From Candidatus Accumulibacter phosphatis (lineage in GTDB: Bacteria; Pseudomonadota; Gammaproteobacteria; Burkholderiales; Rhodocyclaceae): DNA of 64,000 bases. Shown here one piece after another: positions 47,514-64,000 of the stretch (the stretch's first letter is position 1; every line of letters starts with the position of its first letter). Made by a program: the position numbers and the translations under genes. The notes beneath the pieces are model-generated. The model did no database searches, was not told the origin of the DNA, and was given only the letters and a program-made list of their open reading frames with translations. The DNA lies in NCBI RefSeq assembly GCF_012939955.1, contig NZ_SPMY01000018.1, positions 26,002-90,001 of the forward strand. Direction: 5' to 3'.

Positions 47514-47524
47514 CGTGGTTCTCC

Positions 47525-48778
47525 TCAGCCAATCCGTGCGGCGACGACGCCGACGTCACGCAGCATGCTTTCCGCTGCCGGGCCCGAACGGCGCGTCGTG
47601 CGCTCGCGTTCGAGTTGCTTGTTGACCACGTCCCAGTCGAGGTCGAGGAAGGTCAGGCGCTCAAGTTCGCCGCGGATGGCCTTGGCGAACAGCGCGTGCA
47701 GCGACTTCATGGTGATCGCCCGCCCGCCGAGTCCGGCGACGACGGTGTGTCCTTCGAGTTGCAGCCCGGACATCGCCATGCGTACATCGGTCGACACGAC
47801 GCCGCCGATGCCGACGGCGAGGCTCTTTTCGAGCACGACGACGCGTTTTGCGTTCTGCAGCGCTTTACGTACCTCTTCGAGCGGGAAAGGACGGTAGGAA
47901 ATGATCCCCAGGACGCCGATCTTCTCGCCCGCCAGGCGCATCTCGTCGACGACATCCTTGATGGTACCCAGGATCGAACCCATCGCCACGACGATGGTTT
48001 CCGCATCGTCGGTGAAATAGGAATGGGTCAGACCACCCGAATCGCGACCGAATATGGTCTTGAACTGCGCGGCCAGCTTCGGGATCAGTTCCAAGGCCTG
48101 CATCTGCTTGGCGTGCGCGAGGTAGCGCACTTCGGAAAAAGCTTCCGGGCCGACCATCGCGCCGATCGATACCGGGTCGGTCGGATCAAGGACCTGGCGC
48201 GGCTCGTAAGGCGGCAGGAAGGCATCGACCTGCTCTTGAGTCGGTACGTCCACGCGCTCGTAAGCATGCGTGAGAATGAAGCCGTCCATGCAGACCATTA
48301 CCGGCAGGCTGACTTCCTCGGCAAGTTTGAAAGCCAGGATGTGCAGATCGAGCGCTTCCTGGTTGGTCTCGGCAAAGAGCTGGATCCAGCCGCTGTCGCG
48401 TTGCGAGAGGGCATCGGTATGGTCGTTCCAGATATTGATCGGAGCTCCGATGGCACGGTTGGCGACGGTCATGACGATCGGCAGGCCGAGGCCGGAAGCG
48501 TTATAGACCGCCTCGCACATGAACAGAATGCCCTGTGAAGCGGTGGCGGTATAGGTGCGGGCACCGGTTGCCGAGGAACCGATGGCGACGCTCATTGCCG
48601 CGAACTCCGATTCGACGTTGATGAACTCGCAGTCGCTTATTTCGCCGGCCTTGACCATTTCGCCGAGGCCTTCGACGATGTGTGTCTGGGGCGAAATCGG
48701 GTAGGCGCAAATGACTTCGGGCCGGCAAAGGCCGACCGCTTCGGCAACCGCGTGTGAACCTTCAGTCTGTTTAAGCAT
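47525..48778 (-). CDS. porA: Pyruvate:ferredoxin oxidoreductase, alpha subunit
   Basis: 417 residues. Starts with T-E-G-S-H-A-V-A-E-A-V-G-L and I-C-A-Y-P-I-S-P-Q-T, then S-E-F-A-A-M-S-V-A-I-G and T-A-T-A-S-Q-G-I-L-F-M. This is domain I/II of PFOR. The ATG at 48778 is chosen over an upstream frame because porG ends just inside it (8-base overlap). Confidence 0.9.
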   Translation of the reverse strand: MLKQTEGSHAVAEAVGLCRPEVICAYPISPQTHIVEGLGEMVKAGEISDCEFINVESEFAAMSVAIGSSATGARTYTATASQGILFMCEAVYNASGLGLPIVMTVANRAIGAPINIWNDHTDALSQRDSGWIQLFAETNQEALDLHILAFKLAEEVSLPVMVCMDGFILTHAYERVDVPTQEQVDAFLPPYEPRQVLDPTDPVSIGAMVGPEAFSEVRYLAHAKQMQALELIPKLAAQFKTIFGRDSGGLTHSYFTDDAETIVVAMGSILGTIKDVVDEMRLAGEKIGVLGIISYRPFPLEEVRKALQNAKRVVVLEKSLAVGIGGVVSTDVRMAMSGLQLEGHTVVAGLGGRAITMKSLHALFAKAIRGELERLTFLDLDWDVVNKQLERERTTRRSGPAAESMLRDVGVVAARIG

Positions 48779-49367
48779 GTGCGGCCTCCTGGTGACTTGC
48801 CCCGGCAACTTCGTCAAGGACGAACTGATAAGCCTCGCTGGCGGCGGCGATGTTGTTGCTGGCGATCTTCTCCGAGAACTTGGTATTGATGGCCTTGATC
48901 ACCGACTCCAGGCGGATGATTCCCGAGGCGGCGGCGAATCCGGCGAGCAGCGGCACGTTGGGCATCGGTCGGCCAACGTGCTTGCGACTGAGATCGGTGG
49001 CCGGGACGGTGAGAAGTCGCTCTGCCGGCCAGTCACGGACAAAATCAGCAAGGCCCAACTCGGTAAAGCTGCGGCTGGTGTTGATCAGGATATAGCCGCC
49101 TTTCTTCAAGCCGGAGAAGACATCGACCTGGAAGAGCAGGGTCGGATCCTGAATGATCAGGGCATCGGGCTCCATGATTGGTTCACGCAGCCGGATCTCC
49201 TGGTCAGCGATACGGCAAAAAGCGACTACCGGGGCGCCGGTGCGCTCCGATCCGAAGCTCGGAAAGGCTTGTGCATGGCGGCCTTCCTCGAATGCGGCAA
49301 TCGACAACATCTCGGCAGCGGTAACCACGCCCTGGCCACCGCGACCATGTATTCGGACTTGGAACAT
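48771..49367 (-). CDS. porG: Pyruvate:ferredoxin oxidoreductase, gamma subunit
   Basis: 198 residues. The start M-F-Q-V-R-I-H-G-R-G-G-Q-G-V-V is the gamma-subunit signature. A-F-P-S-F-G-S-E-R-T-G-A-P-V follows. A GGAGGAAAC site stands directly before ATG 49367. It is the first gene of the cluster porG-porA-porB-oxidoreductase. PFOR allows low-potential ferredoxin-linked pyruvate metabolism under anaerobic conditions. Confidence 0.9.
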   Translation of the reverse strand: MFQVRIHGRGGQGVVTAAEMLSIAAFEEGRHAQAFPSFGSERTGAPVVAFCRIADQEIRLREPIMEPDALIIQDPTLLFQVDVFSGLKKGGYILINTSRSFTELGLADFVRDWPAERLLTVPATDLSRKHVGRPMPNVPLLAGFAAASGIIRLESVIKAINTKFSEKIASNNIAAASEAYQFVLDEVAGASHQEAAHA

Positions 49368-49616
49368 GTTTCCTCCAGTGTTGAACTTCGGTTGTACATC
49401 GGTGTCGTTTTGAAGTTTGCGCAGCATAGCTCAGTTCGAGTTCATTGAAAACATCGACCTCGATCTGGATCGCAGGCAGCCGCAATTTTCCGGAAAGTCG
49501 TCAGAATCGGCGTCCGATAGACGAGATTTGCTCAACTGCCGACTCTCTGCAGCAGCTTGGTCTGGTGCTGGTGCTACCGATGCGTGCGGCGATGCCACCC
49601 GCTTGCTGGTCAGTGC

Positions 49617-50696
49617 TCATGCCGGCAGTGGGCTACTCCCCGGCCTTTTCGGCATCAGGACCGTATAGTCGAAGTCCAGGAGGACGCTTGGATCGTAGGA
49701 ACCGTCGGCCCGCTTGTAGGGGAAGTCGGCGCAGCTACGGTCCTTGGTCGCCACCGTACGCACGCGCAGTGCGCCAAGGTCATGGCGGCCCGGCAAGGAC
49801 ATCTGTTCGATGATTTCCGACCACGCGTAGACCGTATCACCGGCGAATGCGGGCGCGACATGCCTGCCGGCGTTGATCGCCACGATGCTGAAGGCATTGG
49901 CCAGGCCGTTGAACGACAGCGAGCGCGCCAAGCTAATGATGTAGCCACCATAGACAATTCTGCGTCCGAAGCGTCCACTCTTTTCCGCATGCTGGTTGAA
50001 GTGTACCCGCGCCGTGTTCTGGTACAGGCGGGTGGCCATCATGTGCTCGCTTTCTTCGATGGTCATCCCGTCGAGATGATCGATTCGTTCCCCGACCCGA
50101 TAGTCGTCCCATAGATCAGTACTGCCCGAGAGGGCGGTGTCGTAGCCTTCCACCCTGATTCCAGGCGGAATGACCAGCTCGCTCACCGGCACGACATCGT
50201 GCAGCTCGGGAATGACGGTTTCGGGCGCCGGCGACGCCGGGTCGCGCTTGCGAACCATGACCCAACGGCGGTAATCGAGGGCAATTTGCCCTCGCTGATT
50301 GACGCCGCACGAGCGTACGTAGACGATGCCTGTCTTGCCATCGCGGTTCTCCTTGAGCCCGATCACTGTCGAATCGGCGGTGAGCGTGTCTCCCGGATAG
50401 ACGCGGTGGCCAAAGCGCCCAGCGGCGTAGCCGAGGTTGGCAATGGCATTGAGCGAGATATCGGGCACCGTCTTGCCAAAAACCACGTTGAAAGCCAAGA
50501 GGTTGTCCACCGGGGAACGGAGAAAGGACAGGCTGTGCGCGAACGTGTCGGCCGAGGTCAGGGCAAAGCGCGAGCCGGTCAGCGCCGTGTACAGGGCCAC
50601 GTCACCTTCGGTGATGGTGCGCGGGGTCGCATGCACGATGGCCTGGCCGACGCGAAAATCCTCAAAAAAGTTGCCCCATCTGGTTTTCTCGCTCAT
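49617..50696 (-). CDS. mch: Mesaconyl-C1-CoA hydratase (beta-methylmalyl-CoA dehydratase)
   Basis: 359 residues, two MaoC-like hot-dog domains. It starts M-S-E-K-T-R-W-G-N-F-F-E-D-F and has A-T-P-R-T-I-T-E-G-D-V-A-L-Y, close to the Rhodobacter enzyme as I recall it. The N-A-I-A-N-L-G-Y-A-A-G-R-F-G motif supports this. The reversible reaction links mesaconyl-C1-CoA and beta-methylmalyl-CoA. It is the last gene of the operon mct-mcl-mch. Confidence 0.9.
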   Translation of the reverse strand: MSEKTRWGNFFEDFRVGQAIVHATPRTITEGDVALYTALTGSRFALTSADTFAHSLSFLRSPVDNLLAFNVVFGKTVPDISLNAIANLGYAAGRFGHRVYPGDTLTADSTVIGLKENRDGKTGIVYVRSCGVNQRGQIALDYRRWVMVRKRDPASPAPETVIPELHDVVPVSELVIPPGIRVEGYDTALSGSTDLWDDYRVGERIDHLDGMTIEESEHMMATRLYQNTARVHFNQHAEKSGRFGRRIVYGGYIISLARSLSFNGLANAFSIVAINAGRHVAPAFAGDTVYAWSEIIEQMSLPGRHDLGALRVRTVATKDRSCADFPYKRADGSYDPSVLLDFDYTVLMPKRPGSSPLPA

Positions 50697-50729
50697 TTTC
50701 TCTTCTCTCTGCTGTTGTTGATTACTGTG

Positions 50730-51773
50730 CTACAGCCCATAGGCTGCCGCCAGGTCCGGATCTCGCCTGGCCACCAGGCTCGCCAGATCGACGATCACCC
50801 GCGCTTGTTTCCAGGTCGCGTCGTCCTGCATCTTGCCGTCGATGGTCGCTACCCCACTGCCATCGGGCATGGCTTCCAGGATACGTTTGGCGAACAGGAC
50901 CTCCTTGACGTCGGGGCTGAAGACGCGCTTGGCAATGGCAATCTGGTTTGGTGCCAGCGACCAGGCGCCTGAGCAGCCCATCAGGAAAGCATTGCGGAAT
51001 TGCGCTTCGCAGGCCGCTTCGTCCTTGAGATCGCCGAAGGGGCCGTAGAACGAGTGCAGGCCGTGTGCCACGGCCGCATCGACCATGCGCGCCACCGTGT
51101 AATGCCACAGATCCTGCTGAAAGAAAGCGCGCTGTTCCTGGGCTTCCTGCGCGTCGGCAAGAACGCCGTAACCGGGGTGTCCGCCACCGACGCGGGTGGT
51201 TTTCATGCCGCGCGACGCGGCCAGGTCGGCCGGGCCGAGGCTCAGGCCGTGCATGCGCGGACTGGCGCCACAGATCGCCTCGACGTTGGTTACCCCCTGC
51301 GCGGTTTCGAGCAGGGCGTGCAGCAGAATCGGCTTGCGGATCGCGTACTTCGCCTCAAGCAGAGCAACGTACTGATCGACGAAGTGAATATCCCATGGCC
51401 CCTCGACTTTGGGAATCATGATCACATCGAGCTTGTTGCCGACATGTTTGATGATTTCGCTGAGGTCGTCGAGAACCCAGGGGCTGTTCAGCGCGTTGAT
51501 GCGCACCCACATGCCCGTGTCGCCAAAGTCGTTGTTCTCCAGCACTTCGATGAAGCCGGCACGAGCGGCCTCCTTGGACTCGATCGGGATCGCGTCCTCG
51601 AGGTTGCCGCACATCACGTCGCATCTCCTGGCCGTCTCCGGCACTTTGGCGCGGATTTTTTCGATGTGCGGTGGGAAGAAATGGATCATTCGCTCCGGTC
51701 GCACCGGTAATTCGCGCAGGGGTGGTGGCGCACCGATGGCGAGCGGCTTGTAGAAATGGACGGGTAGCTTCAT
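50730..51773 (-). CDS. mcl: Malyl-CoA / beta-methylmalyl-CoA lyase
   Basis: 347 residues of the HpcH/HpaI (CitE-like) aldolase family. Metal- and CoA-binding patterns include [26 protein letters not shown] and [11 protein letters not shown]. It splits beta-methylmalyl-CoA to glyoxylate + propionyl-CoA and malyl-CoA to glyoxylate + acetyl-CoA. In Chloroflexus the homologue also cleaves citramalyl-CoA; whether this one does is open. ATG 51773 is preceded by a GGGG-type site. Confidence 0.92.
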
Positions 51774-51861
51774 GGCGTTTTCCCCTGGTGAAAAGAACTG
51801 TCTGGTTGGCAAAGGCGGCACGAGGTGGCCACAAGTGGCCAAAGTCTCGTCGGCGAAGATT

Positions 51862-53082
51862 TCAGGCCGGTCCGGCGACGACGCCGGCGTCATGCAGGCG
51901 GCCAACTTCCGCTTCGCTCATGCCGAGAACTTCGAGCAGAATCTGGTCGGTGTGCTCACCCAGTGCCGGCGCCGGCAGCGCCGGCAGGCGTGGCGAGGCG
52001 CTAAAGTCGAGCGGCGTCGTGGGCATCAGGTAGCTGCCGACGCCAGGCTGCTCGGTCATGGTGAACAGCGGATTGTCGATCGAGCAATCGGGATCGTTGG
52101 CCAGCGCCTCGCGAACGCTGCGATAAGGGCCCCAGGTGACGCGGTGCTCATCGAGGATTGCTGCGGCTTCGGCCAGCGTACGCGCCTGGCACCAGGCTTC
52201 GATCAGGGCAGCGATCTGCTGGCGGGCGCGGAAGCGATTGCCTTCGTCGTCAAGATCGAGGCCGAGGCGGACAGCGAGCGCGTCGATCGACTCCTTTAGT
52301 CCGGTCGCCTTGAGCAGGCTGCGCCACTGCCTGCGGGTCAGTCCGACGATCATCAGGCGCTTGCCGTCGAGGGTCTGGAAGTCGCGCCCGAAGGCGCCGT
52401 ACAGGTAGTTTCCCTGCTTGGGTCGGTCGGCGTCGTTGACCATCACCTCGGCGATCATGCCGACGTTGCCGAGCATCGCCAGGGCCACGTCCTTCAGCGC
52501 CAGGCGCACCAACTGTCCTTCACCGGTCATGCGCCGGTGCCTTTCGGCGGCAAGCATGCCGATGGCAATCATCTGGCCGCTGATGAAGTCCCAGGCAGGA
52601 AAGACATGGTTGACCACCTCCGGGGAATTGCTCGGCCCGGTCATGTAGGGCAGACCGATCTGCGGGTTCACCGTGTAATCGACCTCCGAACTACCATCGC
52701 GGCGACCGGTGAGGTTGACCATGATCAGGTCCTGACGATGGACTTTCAGCGCCTCGTAGCTCAGCCAGCCCTCGGCCGGGAAGTTGGTGCTGAACAGGCC
52801 GGCGTTGTCGCCTGGCGCACAGATCAGCTGGGTCAGCAATGCCTGACCGCGGGGATTGCGGAGATTGACGGCGATTGAACGCTTGCCCTTGTTCATGCCG
52901 GCCCAGAAAAGGCTGTGCTGGCCATCAAGGGTCACTGGCCAGCGACCATAATCGAGGCCGCCACCGATCGGGTCGAAGCGAATGACGTCGGCGCCGAGTT
53001 GGGCCAGCGTCATGCCGCCAAGCGGCGCGGCGACGAAAGCCGATCCTTCGACGACGCGCAAGCCCTTGAGAATTCCGTCCAT
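51862..53082 (-). CDS. mct: Mesaconyl-CoA C1-C4 CoA transferase
   Basis: 406 residues, a class III (CaiB/BaiF-type) CoA transferase. It starts [13 protein letters not shown] and has [20 protein letters not shown]. The catalytic Asp is expected in the middle region P-A-W-D-F-I-S-G-Q. Its place beside mcl, mch and meh identifies it as Mct, which moves CoA within mesaconyl-CoA from C1 to C4. It is known from the 3-hydroxypropionate bi-cycle. It is the first gene of the leftward operon. Confidence 0.87.
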
Positions 53083-53325
53083 GAGTTTCACCAATCCTGC
53101 CTGCGTGCCGTACGGCTGCCCATCGATTCGCCAGGTGAGCGAAGCGCCACCTTGCTCAAGGCTGGCTCCTGTCCGGACGCGGAGCGCACAGTATATGGGA
53201 AAAGGGGGGGGGCGGGCGCACACGTTCCGAGTTTTTGGGTAGCGACGCGCGATGGTCGTGCGTCGGCTTGAGTTTGACGGAACGCTGTGCTGTACTTGCC
53301 GAATGCCCGTAGGGCGAACTCTCAA
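53083..53325. other. Left part of the mct / meh divergent region
   Basis: No gene. A possible minus-strand -10 box (TATACT, reverse complement of 53191-53196) could serve mct, but no -35 is apparent. A run of eight G lies at 53205-53212, a place where the sequence itself may be unreliable. Confidence 0.45.
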
Positions 53326-53372
53326 GCGGTCATGATATGTCGAGCCCCCCTGATCATGGAAGGCATGACCGC
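53326..53372. promoter_or_regulatory. Inverted repeat in the divergent mct / meh region
   Basis: GCGGTCATG (53326-53334) and CATGACCGC (53364-53372) are perfect inverted arms 29 bases apart, with TGATCA between. Such spacing could suit a dimeric regulator acting on both operons or an mRNA hairpin. No regulator gene is in this block. Confidence 0.4.
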
Positions 53373-53387
53373 CCCCCTCTTTTCCGG

Positions 53388-53426
53388 CCTTTCTCCCGCC
53401 AGGGAGAAAGGAGATTCGTGCGTCGC
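53388..53426 (+). repeat. REP-like palindromic element, copy 1
   Basis: A 10-bp stem CCTTTCTCCC / GGGAGAAAGG (53388-53397, 53402-53411) followed by ATTCGTGCGTCGC. A second element with the same layout and shared ATTCGTGNGTCGC tail is at 58107-58147. Confidence 0.7.
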
Positions 53427-53458
53427 TTGCGCGACTTTCACATAAAAGGATGGACTTG

Positions 53459-54313
53459 ATGACGGACGCGACAGCAGACTATGCAGCATGGATTGGCCGC
53501 CGGGAGATCACCGACGATGAGCTGGCTCTGGCGCCGGCCTTGGCGGCGGCCGCGACGCTGGACGACACGGCGACGCGCTTCGCGAAGGGTAGCCCGCTAC
53601 CGCCGCTATGGCACTGGTTTTACTTTCTTCCCCGGGCAGCGCAGGCGCAGCTCGATGTCGACGGGCACCCACAGCGTGGCGGCTTCATGCCGCCGATCCC
53701 CTATCCGCGCCGGATGTTTGCCGGCGCCCGCATGCGCTTCCACCGGCCGCTACTGATCGGTCAGCCGGCGCGGCGCGAGGCCGTGATTCGCGATGTCCGG
53801 CAGAAATCGGGGCGATCCGGGTCGCTGGCCTTTGTTTCCGTGCTTTGCCGCTTCTATCAGGATGATGTGTTGTGCATCGAGGAAGAGCAGGACATCGTCT
53901 ATCGCGAACCGGGCGCGGTGGTCGCTCGCCCGTCTGTGATCGAGTGGCCGCCGGTCGAGCACGGAACGTGGTCGCACATTGTGACCCCGGACCCGAAGCT
54001 GCTGTTCCGCTTCTCAGCACTGACTTTCAATGCCCATCGCATTCACTACGACCGGCCGTATGCGGTCGACGAAGAGGGCTATCCGGGGCTGGTGGTGCAT
54101 GGCCCCTTGACCGCCGTCTTGCTGATCGAACTGCTGCGAAAGAATTCGCTGCGCCCGGTAGTCAGCTTCAGCTTCCGCGGACTGGCGCCGCTTTTTGACC
54201 TGGCCCCGTTTCGCATCGTTTGCGCCGGCGAGGACGGCCAGATGTCTCTCGAGGCTCAGGCGCCCGACGGCGTGGTGGCAATGAGCGCCCGCGCCGAGCT
54301 CATGCCGTTGTAG
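53459..54313 (+). CDS. meh: Mesaconyl-C4-CoA hydratase (MaoC / FAS1-like dehydratase)
   Basis: 284 residues. An N-terminal FAS1-type dehydratase half includes W-H-W-F-Y-F-L-P; the C-terminal hot-dog half has the hydratase motif F-N-A-H-R-I-H-Y-D-R-P-Y and V-V-H-G-P-L. Such proteins hydrate mesaconyl-C4-CoA to citramalyl-CoA in the 3-hydroxypropionate bi-cycle, and similar ones act on itaconyl- or methylfumaryl-CoA. Position opposite mct favours Meh. ATG 53459 has AAAGGA 8 bases upstream; ATG 53450 has no spacing to it. Confidence 0.82.
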   Translation: MTDATADYAAWIGRREITDDELALAPALAAAATLDDTATRFAKGSPLPPLWHWFYFLPRAAQAQLDVDGHPQRGGFMPPIPYPRRMFAGARMRFHRPLLIGQPARREAVIRDVRQKSGRSGSLAFVSVLCRFYQDDVLCIEEEQDIVYREPGAVVARPSVIEWPPVEHGTWSHIVTPDPKLLFRFSALTFNAHRIHYDRPYAVDEEGYPGLVVHGPLTAVLLIELLRKNSLRPVVSFSFRGLAPLFDLAPFRIVCAGEDGQMSLEAQAPDGVVAMSARAELMPL

Positions 54314-54908
54314 TTGTATTGCGGTCGGGCTTGCGGTGCATGGTCGCCGCTAGACGTTGATGCCGCTGGCGCTGTTTCTATTTCTGAGCAAGCGCAGGTG
54401 AATTTCCTGAATACCCCGCAGTCATCAAAGCGATCGCATTATCGCGTAGCGGGCGTTCGGGCAATAGTCCATTAAAAACTGATTGGCAAGCGGTCATGGG
54501 CGAATTACCCGTCTTCCTCTCGTGGACGATGTCCTTGACGAATGCGCGGCTGCTTATATTTTATCGTAAGCACATTCTGTTCAAGGTGAGTAATCCGGCG
54601 ATCCGAAAGGTCGCGATCATTTCAAAAAAACACCGGGCCGGCACAGAGCGCTCCTCCGCGGGCGAATGATGGCGAGGCAGGCGTTCGCTTGAGGCGCTGA
54701 CCTTTACGGCCCTCGGCAAGGCCTGGCGCGCTGCAGACTTTTGTCTTGAGTTTTTTATAAGACTTAAAAGATTTCTTTTGGGAGCCGTGAGCGTGTTGCC
54801 TTGCACCACGATCGTCGATAGAATCATTATCAGCGACGGGGAATAATTGATCAAGACAACCGCATAATAGTCGGGGGTATCTATTGTGCGCAATTATGGA
54901 GGGTGGAC
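54314..54908. other. Long AT-richer intergenic region upstream of the 483-residue lyase
   Basis: I see no believable gene in about 595 bases. It is visibly richer in A+T than its neighbours. TTGACG (54535-54540) and TATTTT (54557-54562) give a candidate sigma-70 promoter with 16-base spacing, leaving a leader of about 340 bases. Another feature is ATTGTGCGCAATT just before the start (from 54884), whose reverse complement recurs between the GST and purB genes near 35140. Confidence 0.45.
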
Positions 54909-56360
54909 ATGAAACTCACACTGACCCATGACGAAGTAGCTGCCTATTGTGGCGACTTGCACGCTTCCAACGAGGCGTTCAAGTCCCATTATCCGGCAGA
55001 TTCTTTCGACCGGCAGCCGGTGCACACGGTTTACGGGGGGGCCAATCTGCTCAAGGCCGGCTTTGCCGCCAAGTTGGGTGAGGTGGCGCTCAAGACGCTG
55101 GAAACGTATGCGCCCAGCTACAGTGTTTTTGCCCGTGCTCTTGGTTTGCCGCGCGCCGATACCTTGCCGACCAACGCCATGGAGCTAGCGAGTCTGACGC
55201 GTGCGCTGGAAGCGAATCCCGAGCAGGTGCGTGAGACCAAGCAGGCGGCCTGGCTGGCTTTTACGGTTTATAACCGGGTCGTCAAGAAGCTGAAAACCGA
55301 GCCGGTTGAGGACAACCGCATCGATTTCGAGGATGGCTACGGTAATCGCCCGGACGCTGAGGAAGATGACCATGCCGCTGCGGCGGCAGACGAAGTCGCC
55401 AAAGGTATGCGCGAAGGCCTGCTACCGCCGTTCATCGGCATCCGCGTGAAGACCTTTTCGGACGAGTGCAAGCAGCGCTCGATTCGCACCCTCGATATTT
55501 TCCTGACCCGGCTGGCCGAACAGACCGGCGGCAAGCTGCCCGAGAACTTCATCGTTACTCTGCCCAAGGTGACGACGCCAAGCCAGGTGTCGACCTGCGC
55601 GAAGATCCTCGAAAATCTTGAAGCCAGACTTGCTTTCCCCAAAGATTCGCTGAAGATGGAAATCATGATCGAAACGACGCAGTCGATCATCAACTACCTG
55701 GGCGAGAATACGGTGCCGCTACTGGTGGCCGCTGCGGGTAGCCGCTGCCGCTCAGCAATTTTCGGGACTTACGATTACACGGCCTCGTGCAACATCACCG
55801 CCGCACACCAGAATCACACCCATCCAGCCTGCGATTTTGCCCGCCACGTGATGCAGGTCAGCCTCGCCGGAACCGGCATCACGATTAGCGACGGCGCGAC
55901 CACCAGTATGCCGATTGGACCCCACAAGGCAGCCAAGGACGCGCCGCTGACGGCGCAGCAGATGGACGAAAACCGCACCGTGGTGCACGGTGCCTGGAAG
56001 CTTCATTACGACAACATCATGCACTCTTTGCGGCACGGCTACTACCAGGGATGGGATTTGAATCCGGGGCAATTGCCGGTGCGCTATGCCGCGATCGATA
56101 CCTTCTTCCTGAGCAGTCTGCAGGATGCCTCGGCGCGACTGAACGCTTTCCTGAACAAGGCTGCTCAGGCGACCCTGGTTGGCAATACTTTTGACGACGC
56201 GGCGACAGGGCAGGGCTTGCTGAACTTCTTCCTGCGCGGAATGGCGTGCGGCGCGATCACCGAGCAGGAAGTTCTGGCGACGGGCATCACCCTCGACGAA
56301 TTACGCTCGCGTTCGTTTGTGCAGATTGTCAATAATAGAACCGGTAAGCAAGGGACGTAA
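54909..56360 (+). CDS. HpcH/HpaI-like aldolase/lyase of unusual length, candidate citramalyl-CoA lyase
   Basis: 483 residues, much longer than Mcl (347) and usual CitE-type lyases (about 270-350). Features of the superfamily are T-L-P-K-V at about 217-221, metal-ligand Glu255 in M-E-I-M-I-E-T-T-Q-S-I and the loop I-F-G-T-Y-D-Y-T-A with Asp289. I recall large aldolase-type proteins of this kind (DUF6986) but no assigned function. GGAGGG precedes ATG 54909; GTG 54903 would leave no spacing. Between meh and mcd, a lyase for citramalyl-CoA is the obvious guess, an inference from context only. Confidence 0.6.
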   Translation: MKLTLTHDEVAAYCGDLHASNEAFKSHYPADSFDRQPVHTVYGGANLLKAGFAAKLGEVALKTLETYAPSYSVFARALGLPRADTLPTNAMELASLTRALEANPEQVRETKQAAWLAFTVYNRVVKKLKTEPVEDNRIDFEDGYGNRPDAEEDDHAAAAADEVAKGMREGLLPPFIGIRVKTFSDECKQRSIRTLDIFLTRLAEQTGGKLPENFIVTLPKVTTPSQVSTCAKILENLEARLAFPKDSLKMEIMIETTQSIINYLGENTVPLLVAAAGSRCRSAIFGTYDYTASCNITAAHQNHTHPACDFARHVMQVSLAGTGITISDGATTSMPIGPHKAAKDAPLTAQQMDENRTVVHGAWKLHYDNIMHSLRHGYYQGWDLNPGQLPVRYAAIDTFFLSSLQDASARLNAFLNKAAQATLVGNTFDDAATGQGLLNFFLRGMACGAITEQEVLATGITLDELRSRSFVQIVNNRTGKQGT

Positions 56361-56400
56361 CAGCCGATCGGGTACCAAGCACGCAAGAAAGGGATGAGCC

Positions 56401-58077
56401 ATGACTGAGGTCAAGAACGGGACGCAGGAAGCACGACAGTATCTCCAGGCAGCCGATGCACTGATCAAGAAATCGCTGAGTTGGGTGAAGCAGCAGTGCG
56501 CCGGCGAGAAGGGCGTCTCGAACGAGAAACTGGACGCACATCAGATGGCCAGCTTCGATCTGGCCTGGTGTGCCGCTGAAGCGACCGCCGCGCGCTTTGC
56601 GGTGGAGTATGCCGAAAAGCTTGCCGCTGCCGCGGCGGACAACGACGGTCTGTGTCTGGAAGAGCGGATGGCGCAGGCCTTTTGTGCCGAGGCTTTGCAG
56701 AACATCCATAATCGTTTCTGGGCACGGCCGCAGAGTTTCGGTCTGAACGCCGCCGACCTGGCGGCTTTCGCTTCAAGCGCACTTGCCACCTTCTGCCAGG
56801 CGCAACTGGATGCCGACAAGCTGGCGGCTCTGGGCCGCGAGGTCGTGGCCCTGGAGGGCGATAGCGGCGCCTACATGCTCGGCGACGACGCGCTGATGAT
56901 GCAGGACGCATTTCGCCGGCTGGCGACCAATGTGGTGATGCCGCTGGCCGAGGAGATTCATCGCCAGGACCGCATCATTCCGCAGGAAATCCTCGATCCG
57001 CTGACCGAAATGGGCTGCTTCGGGCTGTCGATTCCGGAACGTTACGGCGGCATCCAGAGCGACGATCATGAAGACAACATGGGCATGATCGTGGTCACCG
57101 AAGAGCTGTCGCGTGGTTCGCTCGGCGCCGCAGGCAGCCTGATTACCCGTCCGGAAATTCTCAGTCGCGCCCTGCAAAAAGGGGGCACGGAAGAGCAGCG
57201 ACAGAAGTGGTTGCCACTGGTGGCGATGGGCGACCCACTGTGTGCCATTGCCGTCACCGAACCGGATACCGGCTCCGACGTTGCTGCCATGCGCCTCAAG
57301 GCGACCAAGTGCGATGGCGGCTGGCTGCTCGACGGCGTCAAGACCTGGTGCACCATGGCCGGCAAAGCGGGTGTGCTCCTGGTTCTGGCACGTTCCAACC
57401 CCGACCGCTCGCTTGGCCACAAGGGCCTGAGCATGTTCCTGGTCGAAAAGGACTCCTATGACGGCCACGATTTCGAGTATCGGCAGGCGCAGGGCGGTGT
57501 GCTCAGCGGTCGGGCGATTTCGACCATCGGTTATCGGGGAATGCATTCCTATGAAGTCTTCTTCGACAATGTTTTCGTCCCCGACGAGAACCTGGTTGGC
57601 GGGCCGGAAGGCGAGGGAAAGGGCTTCTACTTCACGATGGCCGGCTTTGCAGGCGGGCGCATTCAAACGGCGGCGCGTGCCATTGGGGTCATGCAGGCCG
57701 CCTTCGAACGTGCGGTTTCCTATGCCGGCGAGCGCAAGGCATTCGGCAAACCCATTGGCGAGTATCAGCTGACGCTGGTCAAGTTGGCGCGCATGGCGAC
57801 CCTGCTGACCGTATCCCGCCAATTCACCTACGCCGTCGGGCGTTTGATGGATGAGGGTTCGGGGCAGATGGAAGCCAGCATGGTGAAGCTGTTTACCTGT
57901 CGGACGGCCGAATGGCTGACCCGTGAAGCGCTGCAGATTCATGGCGGCATGGGCTACGCCGAGGAGTCACCGGTCAGTCGCTACTTCCTGGATGCGCGTG
58001 TGCTGTCGATTTTCGAAGGCGCCGAAGAAACGCTGGCGCTGAAGGTCATCGCTCGCTCCCTGATCGACGCCGCGTAG
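56401..58077 (+). CDS. mcd: Methylsuccinyl-CoA dehydrogenase
   Basis: 558 residues, the length of ethylmalonyl-CoA-pathway Mcd (about 550), with an N-terminal extension over ordinary acyl-CoA dehydrogenases. The FAD domain shows E-L-S-R-G-S, A-V-T-E-P-D-T-G-S-D and W-C-T-M-A-G-K. The C-terminus has I-H-G-G-M-G-Y-A-E-E and I-F-E-G-A-E-E-T-L. It oxidises (2S)-methylsuccinyl-CoA to mesaconyl-C1-CoA, presumably giving electrons to ETF. A GGGATGAG sequence precedes the ATG. Confidence 0.93.
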   Translation: MTEVKNGTQEARQYLQAADALIKKSLSWVKQQCAGEKGVSNEKLDAHQMASFDLAWCAAEATAARFAVEYAEKLAAAAADNDGLCLEERMAQAFCAEALQNIHNRFWARPQSFGLNAADLAAFASSALATFCQAQLDADKLAALGREVVALEGDSGAYMLGDDALMMQDAFRRLATNVVMPLAEEIHRQDRIIPQEILDPLTEMGCFGLSIPERYGGIQSDDHEDNMGMIVVTEELSRGSLGAAGSLITRPEILSRALQKGGTEEQRQKWLPLVAMGDPLCAIAVTEPDTGSDVAAMRLKATKCDGGWLLDGVKTWCTMAGKAGVLLVLARSNPDRSLGHKGLSMFLVEKDSYDGHDFEYRQAQGGVLSGRAISTIGYRGMHSYEVFFDNVFVPDENLVGGPEGEGKGFYFTMAGFAGGRIQTAARAIGVMQAAFERAVSYAGERKAFGKPIGEYQLTLVKLARMATLLTVSRQFTYAVGRLMDEGSGQMEASMVKLFTCRTAEWLTREALQIHGGMGYAEESPVSRYFLDARVLSIFEGAEETLALKVIARSLIDAA

Positions 58078-58106
58078 GTCCGGCTTCAGTCTGCACTTCG
58101 CCCAAG

Positions 58107-58147
58107 CCTTCTCCCGCGCGCGGGAGAAGGGGGGATTCGTGAGTCGC
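58107..58147 (+). repeat. REP-like palindromic element, copy 2
   Basis: A perfect 24-bp palindrome CCTTCTCCCGCG / CGCGGGAGAAGG (58107-58130) followed by GGGGATTCGTGAGTCGC. It matches the copy at 53388. It sits 30 bases after mcd and may stabilise the mRNA end or act as a weak terminator. Confidence 0.75.
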
Positions 58148-58200
58148 GATTGGTGAAGGTTGAAGGTTAAATGCGACTCTTACCGCAAGAGGAAGATTTC

Positions 58201-59382
58201 ATGTCGCAAGCGATTCGTTTCCGAGCGCAGGTCGAACTGGCTGAAAAAGTGAAGCTGGACGTGCAGCAAGTCCGCTATCCCCACTATGGCCGCTATCTGG
58301 AGGAGTTTGTACCGGGGCAGGTGTTTGTTCACCCGCGTGGTTTCACCTTCTTCCCTGCCCAGATGGAGGCTTTTGCGCGTACCTACATGCAGTGCAATCC
58401 GCTGTATGTCAATGACCAGTACGCGCGGGCCAGCGGCTTTGCCGGTCTGGTCGCTTCGCCGCAGATGGTCTTCAATGTCGTTCTCTCGCTGGGCGTGCAG
58501 AACGATTCAGAAAAGGCGATGGCCAATCTCGGTTATTACGATGCCCAGTACCTGCGACCGGTCTATCAGCTGGATACGATTCGCTCGCTGACCAAGGTCA
58601 TAGACCGCAAAGAGCGCGGTGCCGGCAAGCCGGGCATTGTCACCATCCGTACTCTGGGCCTCAACCAGAATGACGAGGTCGTGCTGCAGTACGAGCGGAA
58701 AATCATGGTCGCCGGGCAGGGCGATCGTCCGCCAACGACGCCCTTGCCGCCGTCGACCGTGATGCCGGCCTTCCCCTGGGTGGACGCTGCCGAGGTCGCC
58801 TTGCCGGAGTTTCCGGAGTCGCTCCCTGCCGGACTGACTGGTCCAAACTCCTGTTTCGAGGACTTTTCCGTCGGCGAGATCATCGTCCATGCCAATGGCC
58901 GAACAATCACTGACGAGCATTTGCCACTGACTTACGCGGTGGGCAATACACATCCGCTGCATTTTGACCGCGTCTTCAGTTCCGGCCTGTCCGGCAAGAT
59001 GAGCGGTGATCCCATCGTTTATGGCGGTCTGGTCTTCGCCTGGCTGGAAGGCCTGGCCAGTCGCGACGTCAGCGAGAACAGCGTTTGGGAGCTGGGTTTT
59101 ACCGAGGGCTATCACACGCAGCCGTCGGTCAGTGGCGATACCGTGGCCGCCTTGTCGCGGGTACTGGCGGCCGAAGATGCGCCGGGCGACCTGGCTGCGA
59201 AGTTCGGCATCGTGAGTTTCCAGCTGATCGGCGTCAAGAATGTTAGTGCTGCCAGGGCCTTTGCCCAATACGGCGTCGATTTGTTCGTCAAGGAAGGCGA
59301 CAAGAAAGCGCTGGCCAAGGAGAAGATCGATGCGAAGATTTTTGAGATCGAGAGACGTCTCTTGATCAGGAAAAGGGGCTAG
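58201..59382 (+). CDS. Second MaoC-type mesaconyl-CoA-hydratase-like protein
   Basis: 393 residues. Two hot-dog domains like mch, but divergent: L-E-E-F-V-P-G-Q-V-F-V-H-P-R-G and later E-D-F-S-V-G-E-I-I-V-H-A-N-G-R-T-I-T-D-E-H. The hydratase-like H-P-L-H-F-D-R segment is in the second half. The start at 58201 follows GAGGAAG and is preferred over 58171. It is directly upstream of ecm (2 bases), so it belongs to the pathway operon. It may hydrate mesaconyl-CoA under other conditions or another C4/C5 enoyl-CoA. Confidence 0.78.
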   Translation: MSQAIRFRAQVELAEKVKLDVQQVRYPHYGRYLEEFVPGQVFVHPRGFTFFPAQMEAFARTYMQCNPLYVNDQYARASGFAGLVASPQMVFNVVLSLGVQNDSEKAMANLGYYDAQYLRPVYQLDTIRSLTKVIDRKERGAGKPGIVTIRTLGLNQNDEVVLQYERKIMVAGQGDRPPTTPLPPSTVMPAFPWVDAAEVALPEFPESLPAGLTGPNSCFEDFSVGEIIVHANGRTITDEHLPLTYAVGNTHPLHFDRVFSSGLSGKMSGDPIVYGGLVFAWLEGLASRDVSENSVWELGFTEGYHTQPSVSGDTVAALSRVLAAEDAPGDLAAKFGIVSFQLIGVKNVSAARAFAQYGVDLFVKEGDKKALAKEKIDAKIFEIERRLLIRKRG

Positions 59383-59384
59383 CC

Positions 59385-61403
59385 ATGGATGTTCTGCAAA
59401 CGAAGCGCGATCGACCGTGGTTGATGCGCACCTATAGTGGTCACAGCTCGGCCAAGGCGTCGAACACGCTTTATCGAACGAACCTGGCCAAAGGTCAGAC
59501 GGGATTGTCGGTGGCCTTCGATTTGCCGACGCAGACCGGTTACGACGCCGACAGTCCCCTGGCGCGGGGCGAAGTCGGCAAGGTCGGCGTGCCGATATCG
59601 CATATCGAGGATATGGATCAGTTGTTCGACCAGATCCCGCTCGATCAGATGAATACGGCGATGACCATCAATGCCACCGCACCATGGTTGCTGTCCTTGT
59701 ACATCGGCCTGGCACAACGGCGGGGAATCGATCCGAAAAAATTGAGCGGCACGACGCAGAACGACATCATCAAGGAATACCTGTCGCGCGGCACCTACAT
59801 CTATCCGCCGGGCCCGTCGATGCGCTTGATCGCCGACACCATCAACTACACCATCAAGCACGTGCCGAAGTGGAATCCCACCAACATCTGCAGTTACCAC
59901 CTGCAGGAGGCGGGGGCGACACCGGTGCAGGAACTGGCCTATGCCCTGTGCGCGGCGATGGCGGTTCTGGACCGGGTGCAGGCGTCTGGCGAGATCAAGC
60001 CGGACGAGTTTTCACAGGTCGTGGAGCGTATCTCCTTCTTCGTCAACGCCGGCATTCGCTTCGTCGAGGAGTGCTGCAAGCTGCGCGCCTTCGGCGAAAT
60101 GTGGGATGAGTTGACCCTTACCCGCTACAAGGTCGCCGACCCGAAGCTGCGCCGCTTCCGTTATGGCGTGCAGGTGAACTCGCTCGGGCTCACCGAGCCG
60201 CAGCCGGAAAACAACGTCCAGCGAATCGTTCTGGAGATGCTCGCGGTGGCGCTTTCCAAAGGCGCGCGGGCGCGCGCCATTCAGCTTCCCGCCTGGAACG
60301 AGGCCATGGGTTTGCCGCGCCCCTGGGATCAGCAATGGGCGCTGCGCATGCAGCAGGTATTGGCTTTCGAAACCGATCTGCTGGAGTATGAAGATATCTT
60401 CGATGGCTCGCCGGTCATTGCCGCCAAGGTCAGGCAACTGGTCGAAGGTGCCAGAAAAGAGATCGCCAATGTCGAGGCGCAGGGCGGCATCATCGCCGCC
60501 ATCGAGTCCGGCTACGTCAAGCGTGAACTGGTCGCCAGTCATATGAACCGCCTGCGTGCCATCGAGTCGGGCGAGCTGAAAATCATCGGCGTCAACTGCT
60601 TCCAGGAAACCGCCGAATCGCCACTGACCCTGGGCAGCGATGGCGGCATCATGAAAACCGATCCGGCCGCCGAACGCGAGCAGATCGAACGCCTGCAGGC
60701 GCATCGAAAAAACCGCAACGACGCCGACGTGCAGGCTGCCTTGCAAGGGCTTGGCGATGCCGCCAGGAGCGGTGAAAACATCATGCCCAGTTCGATTCGC
60801 TGCGCCCTTGCGGGAGTCAGCACCGGCGAATGGGGCGATTCGCTGCGCGCCGTGTTCGGCGAGTTCAGGCCACCGACCGGTATCGATATCGCCATCGACA
60901 GCTGCGCAGTACTCGGCAGGAAGGATCAGGTCACCGAACTCAGGACCCGCGTCGCCAGTACGGGTGAGGCTCTCGGTCGTCCCTTGAAACTATTGGTCGG
61001 CAAACCGGGCCTGGACGGACACTCGAACGGCGCGGAACAGGTTGCCGTCAAGGCCAGGGACGTCGGCTTCGAGGTGGTCTACGACGGTATCCGGCTGACG
61101 CCGCAACAGATTGCCCAGGCCGCGGAGGAAGAGGGCGTGCACATGGTTGGCCTGTCGATACTGTCGGGAAGCCATATGGAACTCGTGGAGTCGGTTCTCG
61201 ATGAACTGCGCCTGCGCGATCTGGCAAGCGTGCCGGTGATCGCCGGCGGGATCATCCCGCTGGAGGATGCGACGAAACTGGTGGCGCTGGGCGTCAGTGC
61301 GGTCTATACGCCCAAGGATTTCAGTTTCAACACCATCATGGCCGATATGGTGGACGTGATCCGCGCAGCCAACGGGCTGGGACGCCTTGGACCGCTGCCC
61401 TGA
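59385..61403 (+). CDS. ecm: Ethylmalonyl-CoA mutase (coenzyme B12)
   Basis: 672 residues. A TIM barrel begins with R-T-Y-S-G-H-S-S-A and has F-D-L-P-T-Q-T-G-Y-D. The C-terminal B12 domain contains D544-G-H546-S-N-G, where His is the lower cobalt ligand. It rearranges (2R)-ethylmalonyl-CoA to (2S)-methylsuccinyl-CoA. Single-chain and shorter than methylmalonyl-CoA mutase, as expected for Ecm. The neighbours mcd, meaB and ccr support Ecm rather than methylmalonyl-CoA mutase. Confidence 0.92.
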   Translation: MDVLQTKRDRPWLMRTYSGHSSAKASNTLYRTNLAKGQTGLSVAFDLPTQTGYDADSPLARGEVGKVGVPISHIEDMDQLFDQIPLDQMNTAMTINATAPWLLSLYIGLAQRRGIDPKKLSGTTQNDIIKEYLSRGTYIYPPGPSMRLIADTINYTIKHVPKWNPTNICSYHLQEAGATPVQELAYALCAAMAVLDRVQASGEIKPDEFSQVVERISFFVNAGIRFVEECCKLRAFGEMWDELTLTRYKVADPKLRRFRYGVQVNSLGLTEPQPENNVQRIVLEMLAVALSKGARARAIQLPAWNEAMGLPRPWDQQWALRMQQVLAFETDLLEYEDIFDGSPVIAAKVRQLVEGARKEIANVEAQGGIIAAIESGYVKRELVASHMNRLRAIESGELKIIGVNCFQETAESPLTLGSDGGIMKTDPAAEREQIERLQAHRKNRNDADVQAALQGLGDAARSGENIMPSSIRCALAGVSTGEWGDSLRAVFGEFRPPTGIDIAIDSCAVLGRKDQVTELRTRVASTGEALGRPLKLLVGKPGLDGHSNGAEQVAVKARDVGFEVVYDGIRLTPQQIAQAAEEEGVHMVGLSILSGSHMELVESVLDELRLRDLASVPVIAGGIIPLEDATKLVALGVSAVYTPKDFSFNTIMADMVDVIRAANGLGRLGPLP

Positions 61404-61410
61404 CCCGCAC

Positions 61411-62410
61411 ATGACACAGGTGCCGCTTCCCGATCCCGAGCAGTTGGCCGTGCGGATACTGCGCCGGGAGCGTGCGGCGGTGGCCAGCGGCTTGAATCTG
61501 CTCGACAACAAGCTGGCGGCCGCGCGTCAGCGCTCGGCACGTTTGCTGGCGGCGCTGTCCGCTGAGCGGGCGCTCAATGACGGCCACCTTATTGGCGTTA
61601 CCGGCCCTCCCGGCGCCGGGAAGTCGTCGCTCGTGTCGGCGCTGATTCGCGAGTGGCGGCTGGCGGGTCGGACGGTCGGAGTGCTCGCTGTTGACCCATC
61701 CAGTCGCCCCGAATTGGGCGGTGGCGCTTTGCTGGGCGATCGCATTCGTATCAAGAACGCGTCCTACGACGAAGGCCTGTTCATTCGCTCGCTGGCCAAC
61801 CGCAACCAGTTGGGTGGCGTGGCGAGCGAGGTCTGGCCGATGAGTTGGCTGCTGCTGGCCTGCTTCGATATCGTCGTCGTCGAGACGGTTGGTGTCGGGC
61901 AAACGGAAATCGATATTGCCGAGATTGGCGACACGGTCTGTTATGTGGCGCAACCGGCCTCGGGTGACACGATCCAGTATCTGAAGTCTGGGATCATCGA
62001 GATTCCGGATGTTTTTGCAGTCAATAAGTCGGACCTTGGCGCTCCGGCGCACAAGACCGCCAGCGAAATTGGCCGCAGCGCCCCCCCGGCAGGATCGCCG
62101 TGATGATTGGGATTATCCGGTGTGCCTGGTGAGCGCCACGATGAATACCGGCATAAAGCAGTTGCACGGGCATTTCGATCGACATCGCAGCTTTCTCGTT
62201 GCGGCCGGCTTGTTGGGCAAACTGCGCGCTCGCCACCAGAGCGGCTGGGTAATGCGGGTGTTGAAGGAGGAGTTCGGGACTTTTGGCGTTGGGCTGGTCG
62301 GCGGCTACGCTGAAATCGGCAAGCGCCTGAACGCAACGCCAGGTAATCAATTCGAAGAATGTGAGCGAATGCGGCAGCAGATTATTTCCAGATTCAAGTC
62401 GTCAGATTGA
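61411..62410 (+). CDS. meaB: MeaB-type GTPase of B12 mutase, frameshifted in this sequence
   Basis: A G-protein chaperone protecting the adenosylcobalamin mutase. The P-loop is in G-V-T-G-P-P-G-A-G-K-S-S; V-D-P-S-S-R-P, E-T-V-G-V-G-Q-T-E and N-K-S-D follow. The frame breaks in a run of seven C (62081-62087). With six C, R-S-A-P-R-Q-D-R-R-D-D-W-D-Y follows and runs intact to 62410, giving 332 residues. It starts 7 bases after ecm. Confidence 0.9.
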
Positions 62411-62442
62411 TCAAGTAGTTCAACCAACGAAGGAGCATCCTG

Positions 62443-64000
62443 ATGAGCAAGCAGCTTTACGAAGTGGGTAATAGACCTCCCCTGGGCGAAGTTCCGGAAC
62501 AGATGCACGCCTGGTTGATTCGCGCCGAGCGCTTTGGCCAGCCGACAGCAGCGTTCCAGAAGGAAGTAGTGAATACGCCGTCGATTGCCGACGACGAGGT
62601 CCTCGTTTACGTGATGGCGGCAGGAATCAACTACAACAACGTCTGGGCGGGAATGGGTGTTCCCGTCAATGTGATCGGCGCTCGCAACAAGGCCGGCGAG
62701 CCCGAGGATTTCCACATTGGCGGTAGCGATGCGTCCGGCATTGTCTACGCAGTGGGCAAGGACGTCACCAACGTCAAGGTGGGCGACGAAGTGGTCATGC
62801 ATTGCGGGACCTATGATCGCAATTGTGCGTGGGTCAAAAAAGGTGGCGATCCGATGTACTCGCCGTCGTTCAAGATCTGGGGTTACGAAACCAATTACGG
62901 CAGTTTTGCCCAATTCACCAGAGTGCAGGCGCAACAGTGCATGCCCAAGCCCAAGCACATGAACTGGGAACAGGCCGCTGCCTATGTCCTGGTTGCAGCG
63001 ACCGCCTGGCGGATGCTGCACGGCTGGGAAAGCAGTTCGGTCAAGAAGGGCGACGTGGCCTTGATCTGGGGTGGCGCGGGCGGTCTCGGTTCGATGGCGA
63101 TTCAGATCGCCAAAGCGGTCGGTGCAACCTCCGTGGCCATCGTCTCGGGCGAGGACAAATACGACTACTGCATGAAGCTCGGCGCGAAGGGCTGCATCAA
63201 CCGCAATGACTTCGATCATTGGGGAATGTTGCCGCACTGGAAGGACAATGCCGGCTACGCCAAGTGGTTGAAGGGCGTGCGCGGCTTCGGCGCAAAAATC
63301 TGGGAAGTGCTGGGTGAAAAGCGGGCGCCGAATATTGTCTTCGAGCATCCCGGTGAAACGACTATTCCGAGTTCGATTTTTGTTTGCGAAACCGGCGGCA
63401 TGGTGGTGGTCTGCGCCGGTACCAGCGGCTACAATGCGACGGTCGATTTGCGCTACCTGTGGATGCGGCAAAAGCGCCTGCAAGGCTCGCATTTCGCCAA
63501 TACCAAGCAGTGCAACGAGATGAACGAGTTGGCGCAGAGCGGCCAGCTTGATCCCTGTATGTCGCGGGCGTTTACCTATGAAGAATTACCCATTGCCCAT
63601 CAGTTGATGGCCGACAACAAACACCCACACGGCAACATGTCGGTGCTCATCGGCGCCACCGACTTCGGTCTCGGTGCCAGCGGCAAGCCGGCGGTCGCGA
63701 TGGTACAACCGACGCTGCCCAAGGGCGACGTGCACACCACGCCGGCGCCGTACCCGATGTCCACGCCGTTGCCGGGCATTGCCGAGGGCGAGCCGATCAC
63801 CATTGCCGACGACGGCAGCAAGGTTCGCGATTTGATGCATCGTGGCATCATTTCCTGCGCGCCGGATGATACCGTCGGCGCCGTGGCCAAGATCATGGTC
63901 GGCAACGAAATCCATGCGGTGGTAGTCATGGATGCGCAGGGCGCGGCAGTCGGCGTCGTGTCGCAGACCGATATGGTGCTGGCGCGGCAGGGCCGCACTC
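62443..64000 (+). CDS. ccr: Crotonyl-CoA carboxylase/reductase fused to a C-terminal CBS domain (partial, runs off the window)
   Basis: 519 codons are visible and the frame is still open at the edge. Residues 1 to about 405 are a complete Ccr: an MDR-type reductase with [17 protein letters not shown], the nucleotide motif W-G-G-A-G-G-L-G-S, and the end N-M-S-V-L-I-G-A. It reductively carboxylates crotonyl-CoA to ethylmalonyl-CoA with NADPH. After a Pro-rich linker (about 410-455) a CBS motif follows ([25 protein letters not shown]). GAAGGAG precedes ATG 62443. Ordinary Ccr ends near residue 430, so the CBS part is an addition, perhaps an adenylate-sensing module. Confidence 0.9.

Follow-up and report, generated by a model that had tools for sequence, protein, structure and literature searches.

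The stretch of DNA analysed here, a 64,000-nucleotide window (G000:C19:26002-90001; G, C and L numbers are our handles for genomes, contigs and loci) from a 5.04 Mb draft genome of Candidatus Accumulibacter, carries genes of two carbon pathways side by side: all four of the mch-mcl-mct-meh set of the 3-hydroxypropionate bi-cycle, and an operon of the ethylmalonyl-CoA (EMC) pathway with ccr, ecm and mcd all present. On the minus strand, read leftwards, lie mct (53082-51862), for mesaconyl-CoA C1-C4 transferase, mcl (51773-50730) and mch1 (50696-49617), for a mesaconyl-C1-CoA hydratase of the type common to Chloroflexus and alphaproteobacteria, followed by porG, porA, porB and the gene of an FAD/NAD(P)/Fe-S subunit (44878-49427). 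On the plus strand, meh (53450-54313), for mesaconyl-C4-CoA hydratase, is separated by a 589-bp gap from a tight operon consisting of a gene for a DUF6986 protein of 483-485 amino acids (54903-56360), mcd for (2S)-methylsuccinyl-CoA dehydrogenase (56401-58077), mch2 for a second double-hotdog MaoC hydratase (58171-59382, likely start 58201), ecm for ethylmalonyl-CoA mutase (59385-61403), meaB for a mutase-associated GTPase (61387-62410) and ccr for a crotonyl-CoA carboxylase/reductase of 584 amino acids (62443-64000, and on to about 64197). The intergenic distances in that order are 40, 93, 2, -17 and 32 bases. Beyond ccr the contig continues with a gene for a PIG3-like reductase, which falls under the cut-off of that model, and then with one for a MaoC hydratase that we label PhaJ-like; it has the MaoC domain in Pfam and scores 139 bits against its best NCBIfam model, the cut-off of which is 282. 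The window Mct is 98% identical to that of A. meliphilus UW-LDO-IC (L033), and in the tree it groups with A. meliphilus, A. adiacens and A. regalis.

Models, PDB matches and retained residues bear out the names that an earlier sequence-only reading of this DNA had given to its EMC and bi-cycle genes. By its sequence the window Mct is a member of the mesaconyl-CoA C1-C4 transferase family: it scores 820.5 bits against TIGR04253 (equivalog cut-off 725), matches PDB 7xkg and 8apq, and retains the nucleophile D165 and the intramolecular signature L43/R47/Y136, plus R75, N100, F101 and D135, from the list of substrate and catalytic residues in PMC9813914 (papers are cited throughout for the passages that bear on the point). 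Mcl gives full-length matches to PDB 6kin and 4l7z/4l80, is identical to the Chloroflexus islandicus lyase at 283 of 347 positions (82%), and retains R92 and D318. The best PDB matches of Mch1 are 4e3e and 8hgn; it shares 246 of 354 aligned residues with the C. islandicus protein, and is 53% identical to the product of a Ruegeria plasmid gene with no annotation beyond MaoC dehydratase and 50% to that of a Sphingobium gene annotated as mch. Meh matches PDB 8huc/8khg (E ~2e-66), is 67% identical to its C. islandicus counterpart and retains the motif NAHRIHYDRPY. It could be argued that the neighbourhood is merely historical and that Mct and Meh are relics, unexpressed or acting on other CoA-ester substrates: R104 of the Chloroflexus Mct is a glutamate in the window protein, as it is in L033-L035 and L085, the literature examined gave no sign of mct or meh expression, and PMC12604563 contains neither 'mesaconyl' nor 'citramalyl'. 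The catalytic residues are retained, however, the reading frames of mct, mcl, mch1 and meh are intact in the window, and within the genus Meh occurs in 26 of 28 genomes and Mct in all nine that were sampled, and we give this explanation very little credence.

In the EMC operon, Ccr clears the TIGR01751 cut-off of 379 with 555 bits, matches PDB 4y0k, 9kva and 4gi2, and carries a pair of CBS domains at its C-terminus (PF00571 twice). The same fusion is seen in 12 of 12 Accumulibacter-type regions that cover the end of ccr, G195 included, and in a Rhodospirillales metagenome-assembled genome (MAG; L160:2592-4373); it is absent from the four further Ccr proteins checked, two from actinobacteria and two from other Alphaproteobacteria, and the open-access literature searched contained no paper with both 'crotonyl-CoA carboxylase' and 'CBS domain'. 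Mcd scores 613 bits against PDB 8ciw, deposited as (2S)-methylsuccinyl-CoA dehydrogenase, an entry name from which we take the EMC activity of this type, and 308 bits against the Paracoccus enzyme 6es9; in an alignment read by eye the equivalents of Paracoccus R252, R376, R421 and E535 are retained, and differences occur at A285 (Ile, as in 8ciw) and F287 (Val; Ile in 8ciw). No Ecm-specific model matched Ecm, the name of which rests on mutase models, PDB mutases and gene position; it is 62-65% identical to the mutases adjoining alphaproteobacterial Ccr. The meaB gene is split into two frames in this assembly (61387-62103 and 62009-62410), its 5' part scoring, as a fragment, 185 bits against TIGR00750 (cut-off 241), and is a single frame in the relative L033. 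Since the isocitrate lyase match in the same draft likewise stops short (profile positions 4-375 of 430), an assembly error is likely.

The MaoC gene within the operon, mch2, calls for a correction to the earlier reading, its identity to the Mch next to mcl being only some 30%. It passes the gathering score of PF19315, the Pfam mesaconyl-CoA hydratase family, reaches the cut-off of no NCBIfam equivalog, and aligns with mch1 at 31% in a profile alignment (E 8e-28); judged by sequence it is a divergent paralogue of mch1. As the standard EMC hydratase it was rejected, the Ruegeria/Tritonibacter plasmid genes being 32-33% identical to mch2 versus 53-54% to mch1. L148 and L151 have EMC operons that lack mch2, and in L148 (G079:C90) hydration may rely on mch1 or on another enzyme. 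The hydratase and the beta-methylmalyl-CoA lyase that the EMC pathway requires are probably present in the window as the bi-cycle-type mch1 and mcl. Where ccr, ecm, mcd, mch and mcl had all been described as specific EMC steps, mch and mcl are not EMC-specific, both being of the Chloroflexus bi-cycle type here.

Within the EMC operon no MCL was apparent. The Chloroflexus-type Mcl is the sole close MCL in the window genome, which encodes two PF03328 proteins: Mcl and a 327-amino-acid protein that adjoins malate dehydrogenase and passes no lyase equivalog. Because this second protein is only 27% identical to Mcl, it is most likely that beta-methylmalyl-CoA and citramalyl-CoA share one lyase. According to PMC3832036 the Chloroflexus enzyme has three functions; it splits citramalyl-CoA efficiently, and formation of this compound was observed only when pyruvate was in excess. 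A second lyase had been read into the block at 54903-56360, which proves to be the DUF6986 protein, a distant CitE-like protein; it scores 581 bits against PF22484 and matches Mcl weakly in a profile comparison (hhalign probability 26), with the likely catalytic motifs aligned. Its motifs resemble those of CitE-like lyases. A plain MCL function is not supported, as there is no PDB match and a single weak NCBIfam match (E 4.5e-4). Relatives at 32-38% occur in five actinobacterial plasmids, and among the 249 family genomes its distribution coincides with that of Ccr (nine genomes), making it a good candidate for an EMC-linked enzyme.

We propose that mesaconyl-C1-CoA is a metabolic hub that can be entered by two routes and left by two; in this scheme the enzyme activities and the direction of flux are predictions from sequence. 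By one entry, acetyl-CoA or monomers of poly-3-hydroxybutyrate (PHB) would be converted to crotonyl-CoA and, with CO2 fixed by Ccr, through Ecm and Mcd to mesaconyl-C1-CoA; by the other, propionyl-CoA and glyoxylate would enter via Mcl and Mch in reverse. The first exit, through Mch and Mcl, would yield propionyl-CoA and glyoxylate. At the second, Mct would shift the CoA to C4, Meh would hydrate the product, and the same Mcl would cleave (S)-citramalyl-CoA to acetyl-CoA and pyruvate. The sequence-only reading had placed a branch point at mesaconyl-C1-CoA, and this compound is indeed the predicted shared node of the encoded enzymes. We consider it rather probable that the organism is able to use both exits.

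Stoichiometries were obtained by bookkeeping on a reaction list drawn up for this analysis. As far as mesaconyl-C1-CoA, two acetyl-CoA give crotonyl-CoA at the cost of one NADPH, Ccr uses CO2 and one further NADPH, and Ecm and Mcd follow, the last with one reduced electron-transferring flavoprotein (ETF). With the C4 exit, acetyl-CoA, CO2 and two NADPH yield pyruvate, CoA and reduced ETF, and no glyoxylate is involved; this agrees with the sum of acetyl-CoA and CO2 to pyruvate given earlier and adds its price, two NADPH, and the one reduced ETF released. With the C1 exit, two acetyl-CoA, CO2 and two NADPH yield propionyl-CoA, glyoxylate, CoA and reduced ETF. A PHB monomer sent through the C4 exit becomes acetyl-CoA and pyruvate for one NADPH, and these products could feed glycogen. 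Accumulibacter cycles PHB and glycogen in the course of its life cycle, and this, together with the PhaJ-like gene, suggests that PHB might be turned into glycogen in this way. Cycling of polyhydroxyalkanoate and glycogen is described in PMC12604563 and PMC8956781.

The pairing of the two gene sets was followed through 249 sampled genomes of the family and through 28 genomes of the genus, with thresholds of E <= 1e-100 for Ccr, 1e-20 for Meh and 1e-150 for Mcd, and through the best 80 of 204 Mct relatives, which were taken as loci; Ccr was checked in the genomes of 50 of these 80 loci and Meh in those of 30. Linkage was counted, with flanks of up to 10 kb, over 22 Accumulibacter-type loci (L033-L049, L051, L054, L063, L076 and L086), which include L044, from a genome named Dechloromonas, and L063, the earliest branch. 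Mct lies above its cut-off in 10 of the 249 family genomes. Ccr is present in nine (eight above the cut-off, plus a fragment in G195), all of them Mct-positive; G125, the one remaining genome with Mct, lacks both Ccr and DUF6986. Within the genus, Meh was found in 26 of 28 genomes (in G310 at only 47% identity), Mcd in 22 and both in 21; in 16 of these the two share a contig, and in 15 they lie no more than 10 kb apart, by distances calculated from the tables. EMC genes occur in the mct flank at 11 of the 22 Accumulibacter-type loci, several others of which end at contig ends, and Ccr is encoded in 18 of the 22 genomes. Over all 50 genomes tested there are 23 Ccr-positive Mct carriers, 20 with a Meh relative, three only at 43-48%. 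The comparative search for EMC genes together with mct-meh that the sequence-only reading had suggested thus finds the pairing again, and, given this recurrence across the genus, it is more than chance. In L151 (G195:C12, another genus) the EMC operon is in many broken frames and the Mct quartet (L152) is intact, through either decay or poor assembly.

The same survey also speaks for an alternative, in which the quartet serves only to co-assimilate propionyl-CoA, from propionate or polyhydroxyvalerate (PHV), and glyoxylate, from isocitrate lyase, into acetyl-CoA and pyruvate, the EMC operon being a separate neighbour. Bookkeeping on the quartet alone gives exactly this conversion. Bi-cycle-type Mct occurs without Ccr in 4 of the 22 Accumulibacter-type genomes (L037, L041, L044 and L046), and outside the Accumulibacter group Ccr was found in 0 of the 18 genomes tested with such an Mct; the 18 comprise seven Chloroflexota and 11 of Gemmatimonadota, Rubrivivax-type and other Pseudomonadota (L059, L061, L062 and L064-L071, some of these loci being truncated). 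Because of the four Ccr-less Accumulibacter-type genomes, the quartet would also work without EMC, probably in co-assimilation of propionyl-CoA and glyoxylate, and this is its likely role wherever Ccr is missing. Isocitrate lyase is encoded in all 28 genomes of the genus, and the partial bi-cycles of Kentron have been interpreted in this sense (PMC6593406). Against such a restricted role, with no MCL in the EMC operon and one close MCL in the genome the two pools would probably meet at mesaconyl-C1-CoA regardless, the linkage of Mcd and Meh is retained in 15 of the 21 genus genomes with both genes, and the alphaproteobacterial L109, L111 and L112 have meh-mct without adjoining mcl or smt, two of these genomes being Ccr-positive. 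For the window genome we regard co-assimilation as the sole function as unlikely.

The gene order meh / smtA-smtB-mct-mcl-mch is common to Chloroflexus, Chloroploca, Gemmatimonadaceae, Rubrivivax and many Accumulibacter. The genes smtAB, which encode succinyl-CoA:malate CoA transferase and are the malate link of the bi-cycle, are absent beside mct in the window; relocation within the window genome was considered and rejected, the five other CoA-transferase III matches being at most 42%. Of the 21 Accumulibacter-type loci that could be evaluated, 12 have them and nine (L033, L035, L036, L039, L042, L044, L047, L048 and L054) lack them beside mct, the only place judged, a count that omits L034, at a contig end, and scores the contig-cut L086 as present. 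L054 keeps fragments of smtAB, and all nine smtAB-less genomes retain Meh. Nor is Meh lost where it does not lie beside mct, an idea likewise rejected: in L143, L147 and L163 meh sits at the far (ccr/PhaJ) end of the EMC operon. Inspection by eye for a promoter motif common to the EMC operon and the interval separating mct from meh gave nothing convincing. In an Mct tree of 81 rows, made up of the window, two outgroups and all but two of the 80 loci, the 23 rows of the Accumulibacter group, L044 and L063 included, form a single clade with support of 100/99 inside the bi-cycle type.

The combination may recur elsewhere, in cases that are leads and not proof. The Rhodospirillales MAG (L060, L160 and L166) encodes on several contigs Ccr-CBS (76% and 59%), Ecm (65%), a protein resembling Mcd (42%), Mct (71%), Meh (66%) and smtAB; the stretches examined did not contain mcl or mch, at which no search was aimed. 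Ccr and an Ecm relative at 62% are encoded in the genomes of L109 and L111 (Rhodobacter sp., Alphaproteobacteria), which have, elsewhere in the genome, a pair of meh-like (42-48%) and mct (57%) genes lying among genes of other families or none; their Mct retains L43/R47/D165, with R75 and F101 changed. The actinobacterial L073 and L074 combine Ccr with a more distant Mct (64%) and have no Meh. As a separate observation, three gammaproteobacterial loci (Porticoccaceae, Pseudomonadales; L080, L082 and L098) have Mcd (54-58%) beside or near Mct (59-61%) and no Ccr match in the genome, suggesting another pathway, perhaps through methylsuccinyl-CoA; L080 also carries genes for HMG-CoA-synthase-like, thiolase, short-chain dehydrogenase/reductase (SDR) and aldehyde dehydrogenase proteins.

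Several observations weigh against a joint operation of the two pathways. No epimerase above the TIGR03081 cut-off was found in any of the 28 genus genomes, as against 8 of 14 control genomes, leaving the step from Ccr to Ecm unsecured; a weaker relative scores 42-47 bits in 27 of the 28 and 32 bits in G309, the one in the window genome being a Glyoxalase_4 protein (G000:C79:6723-7124, L169) with 45 bits against a cut-off of 115. A 2025 study states that Propionivibrio differs from Accumulibacter in having an epimerase gene (PMC12604563). Eight of the nine family genomes with both Ccr and Mct come from the genus of the window and do not amount to nine independent events, and in G195 the quartet and the EMC operon, itself in pieces, are on separate contigs. 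The four Ccr-less Accumulibacter-type genomes count here as well, and since the smtAB-less L044 is one of them, both the quartet and the absence of smtAB are independent of EMC. The meaB gene is broken in this assembly, and the cell would need some means of steering mesaconyl-C1-CoA between Mch and Mct. The joint route also has competitors. Isocitrate lyase and malate synthase families are encoded in 28 of 28 genus genomes, both above their equivalog cut-offs in that of the window, and directly adjoining mch1 is the PorGAB-like 2-oxoacid:acceptor oxidoreductase, with its NAD(P)-type flavin/Fe-S subunit bearing a fused PorD-like domain. The best matches of this complex are pyruvate synthase-type models, under the PorA, PorB and PorC equivalog cut-offs and with the broader PorC_KorC and PorD_KorD subfamily cut-offs passed; porG accompanies 17 of the 22 Accumulibacter-type loci, and the complex could make or burn pyruvate. 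With the shunt genus-wide and a pyruvate synthase-like complex adjacent, growth on acetate does not require the joint route. The earlier statement that there is no pyruvate:ferredoxin oxidoreductase (PFOR) thus holds for the route and not for the cell, and a route that needs no glyoxylate does not imply a cell devoid of the shunt.

It is also conceivable that the EMC operon is an anaerobic redox sink making propionyl-CoA for PHV, with Mct and Meh little active or running backwards, from pyruvate and acetyl-CoA to propionyl-CoA and glyoxylate. EMC transcription is up at low phosphate in type I Accumulibacter, which was interpreted as redox balancing (PMC12604563), and EMC has been proposed to serve PHV formation in Contendobacter (PMC8956781); the backward direction, however, is disfavoured by the Chloroflexus lyase, which makes citramalyl-CoA only with excess pyruvate and cleaves it efficiently (PMC3832036). 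We judge this explanation quite improbable. Returning to the hub, its most far-reaching form would be a naturally occurring, oxygen-tolerant pathway that fixes CO2 and leads from acetyl-CoA, or directly from PHB stores, to pyruvate by way of PhaJ, Ccr, an epimerase, Ecm, Mcd, Mct, Meh and Mcl; it would restore glycogen at the expense of PHB during the aerobic phase without loss of CO2 or use of ferredoxin, the CBS pair of Ccr acting as an energy-state valve. We put this forward tentatively, as possible and short of probable.

The gene-level observation of the sequence-only reading is therefore confirmed and its interpretation partly supported. What the locus appears to hold is a natural combination of two known pathways, each already reported in the genus, with joint flux as a prediction. 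EMC in Accumulibacter was reported in PMC12604563 and Mct in PMC9813914 and PMC6593406, the latter listing Accumulibacter among the holders of bi-cycle enzymes; a junction of EMC with the mesaconyl-C4 branch was not found in the open-access literature searched, which was that of one library. The last steps are not new, because the bi-cycle itself already ends in the cleavage of citramalyl-CoA to pyruvate (PMC8307300). If the proposal is true, it would be a natural assimilation of acetyl-CoA ending in a C3 product, apart from the much longer Chloroflexus bi-cycle with the same final steps. It would offer an answer to the coexistence of EMC and the glyoxylate shunt in Accumulibacter, left unclear by the 2025 transcriptome study (PMC12604563), and may provide a link from PHB to glycogen in a bacterium that takes phosphorus out of wastewater.

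The closest known relative of the quartet is the second half of the Chloroflexus bi-cycle (mch-mcl-mct-smtB-smtA-meh), which has the same order and, in C. islandicus, identities of 82% for Mcl, 78% for Mct, 70% for Mch and 67% for Meh; in contrast, the window lineage is without smtAB and has the EMC operon adjacent, and none of the seven Chloroflexota Mct genomes has Ccr. With the EMC pathway of Rhodobacter, Methylobacterium and Paracoccus the window shares the chemistry of Ccr, Ecm, Mcd and Mch/Mcl. It differs in having one operon, EMC genes elsewhere being typically scattered (PMC10370305), in an Mcl of Chloroflexus rather than Rhodobacter type, in an Mcd nearer to 8ciw than to the Paracoccus enzyme, and in the addition of DUF6986, Mch2, the Ccr-CBS fusion and the C4 exit. 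The synthetic CO2 fixation route CETCH has been proposed for linkage to a mesaconyl-C4-CoA module (PMC12290011). In the itaconate/methylsuccinate degradation cluster of Cupriavidus and Pseudomonas the dehydrogenase yields the C4 ester directly, and the path as described needs neither Mct nor Ccr. A parallel to the proposed route is the lower arm of the synthetic THETA cycle, which reportedly runs from crotonyl-CoA through mesaconyl-CoA and citramalyl-CoA to acetyl-CoA and pyruvate. Mesaconyl-C1-CoA is an intermediate there too (PMC10249356), but the THETA cycle is a designed pathway, whereas the window contains a natural gene cluster.

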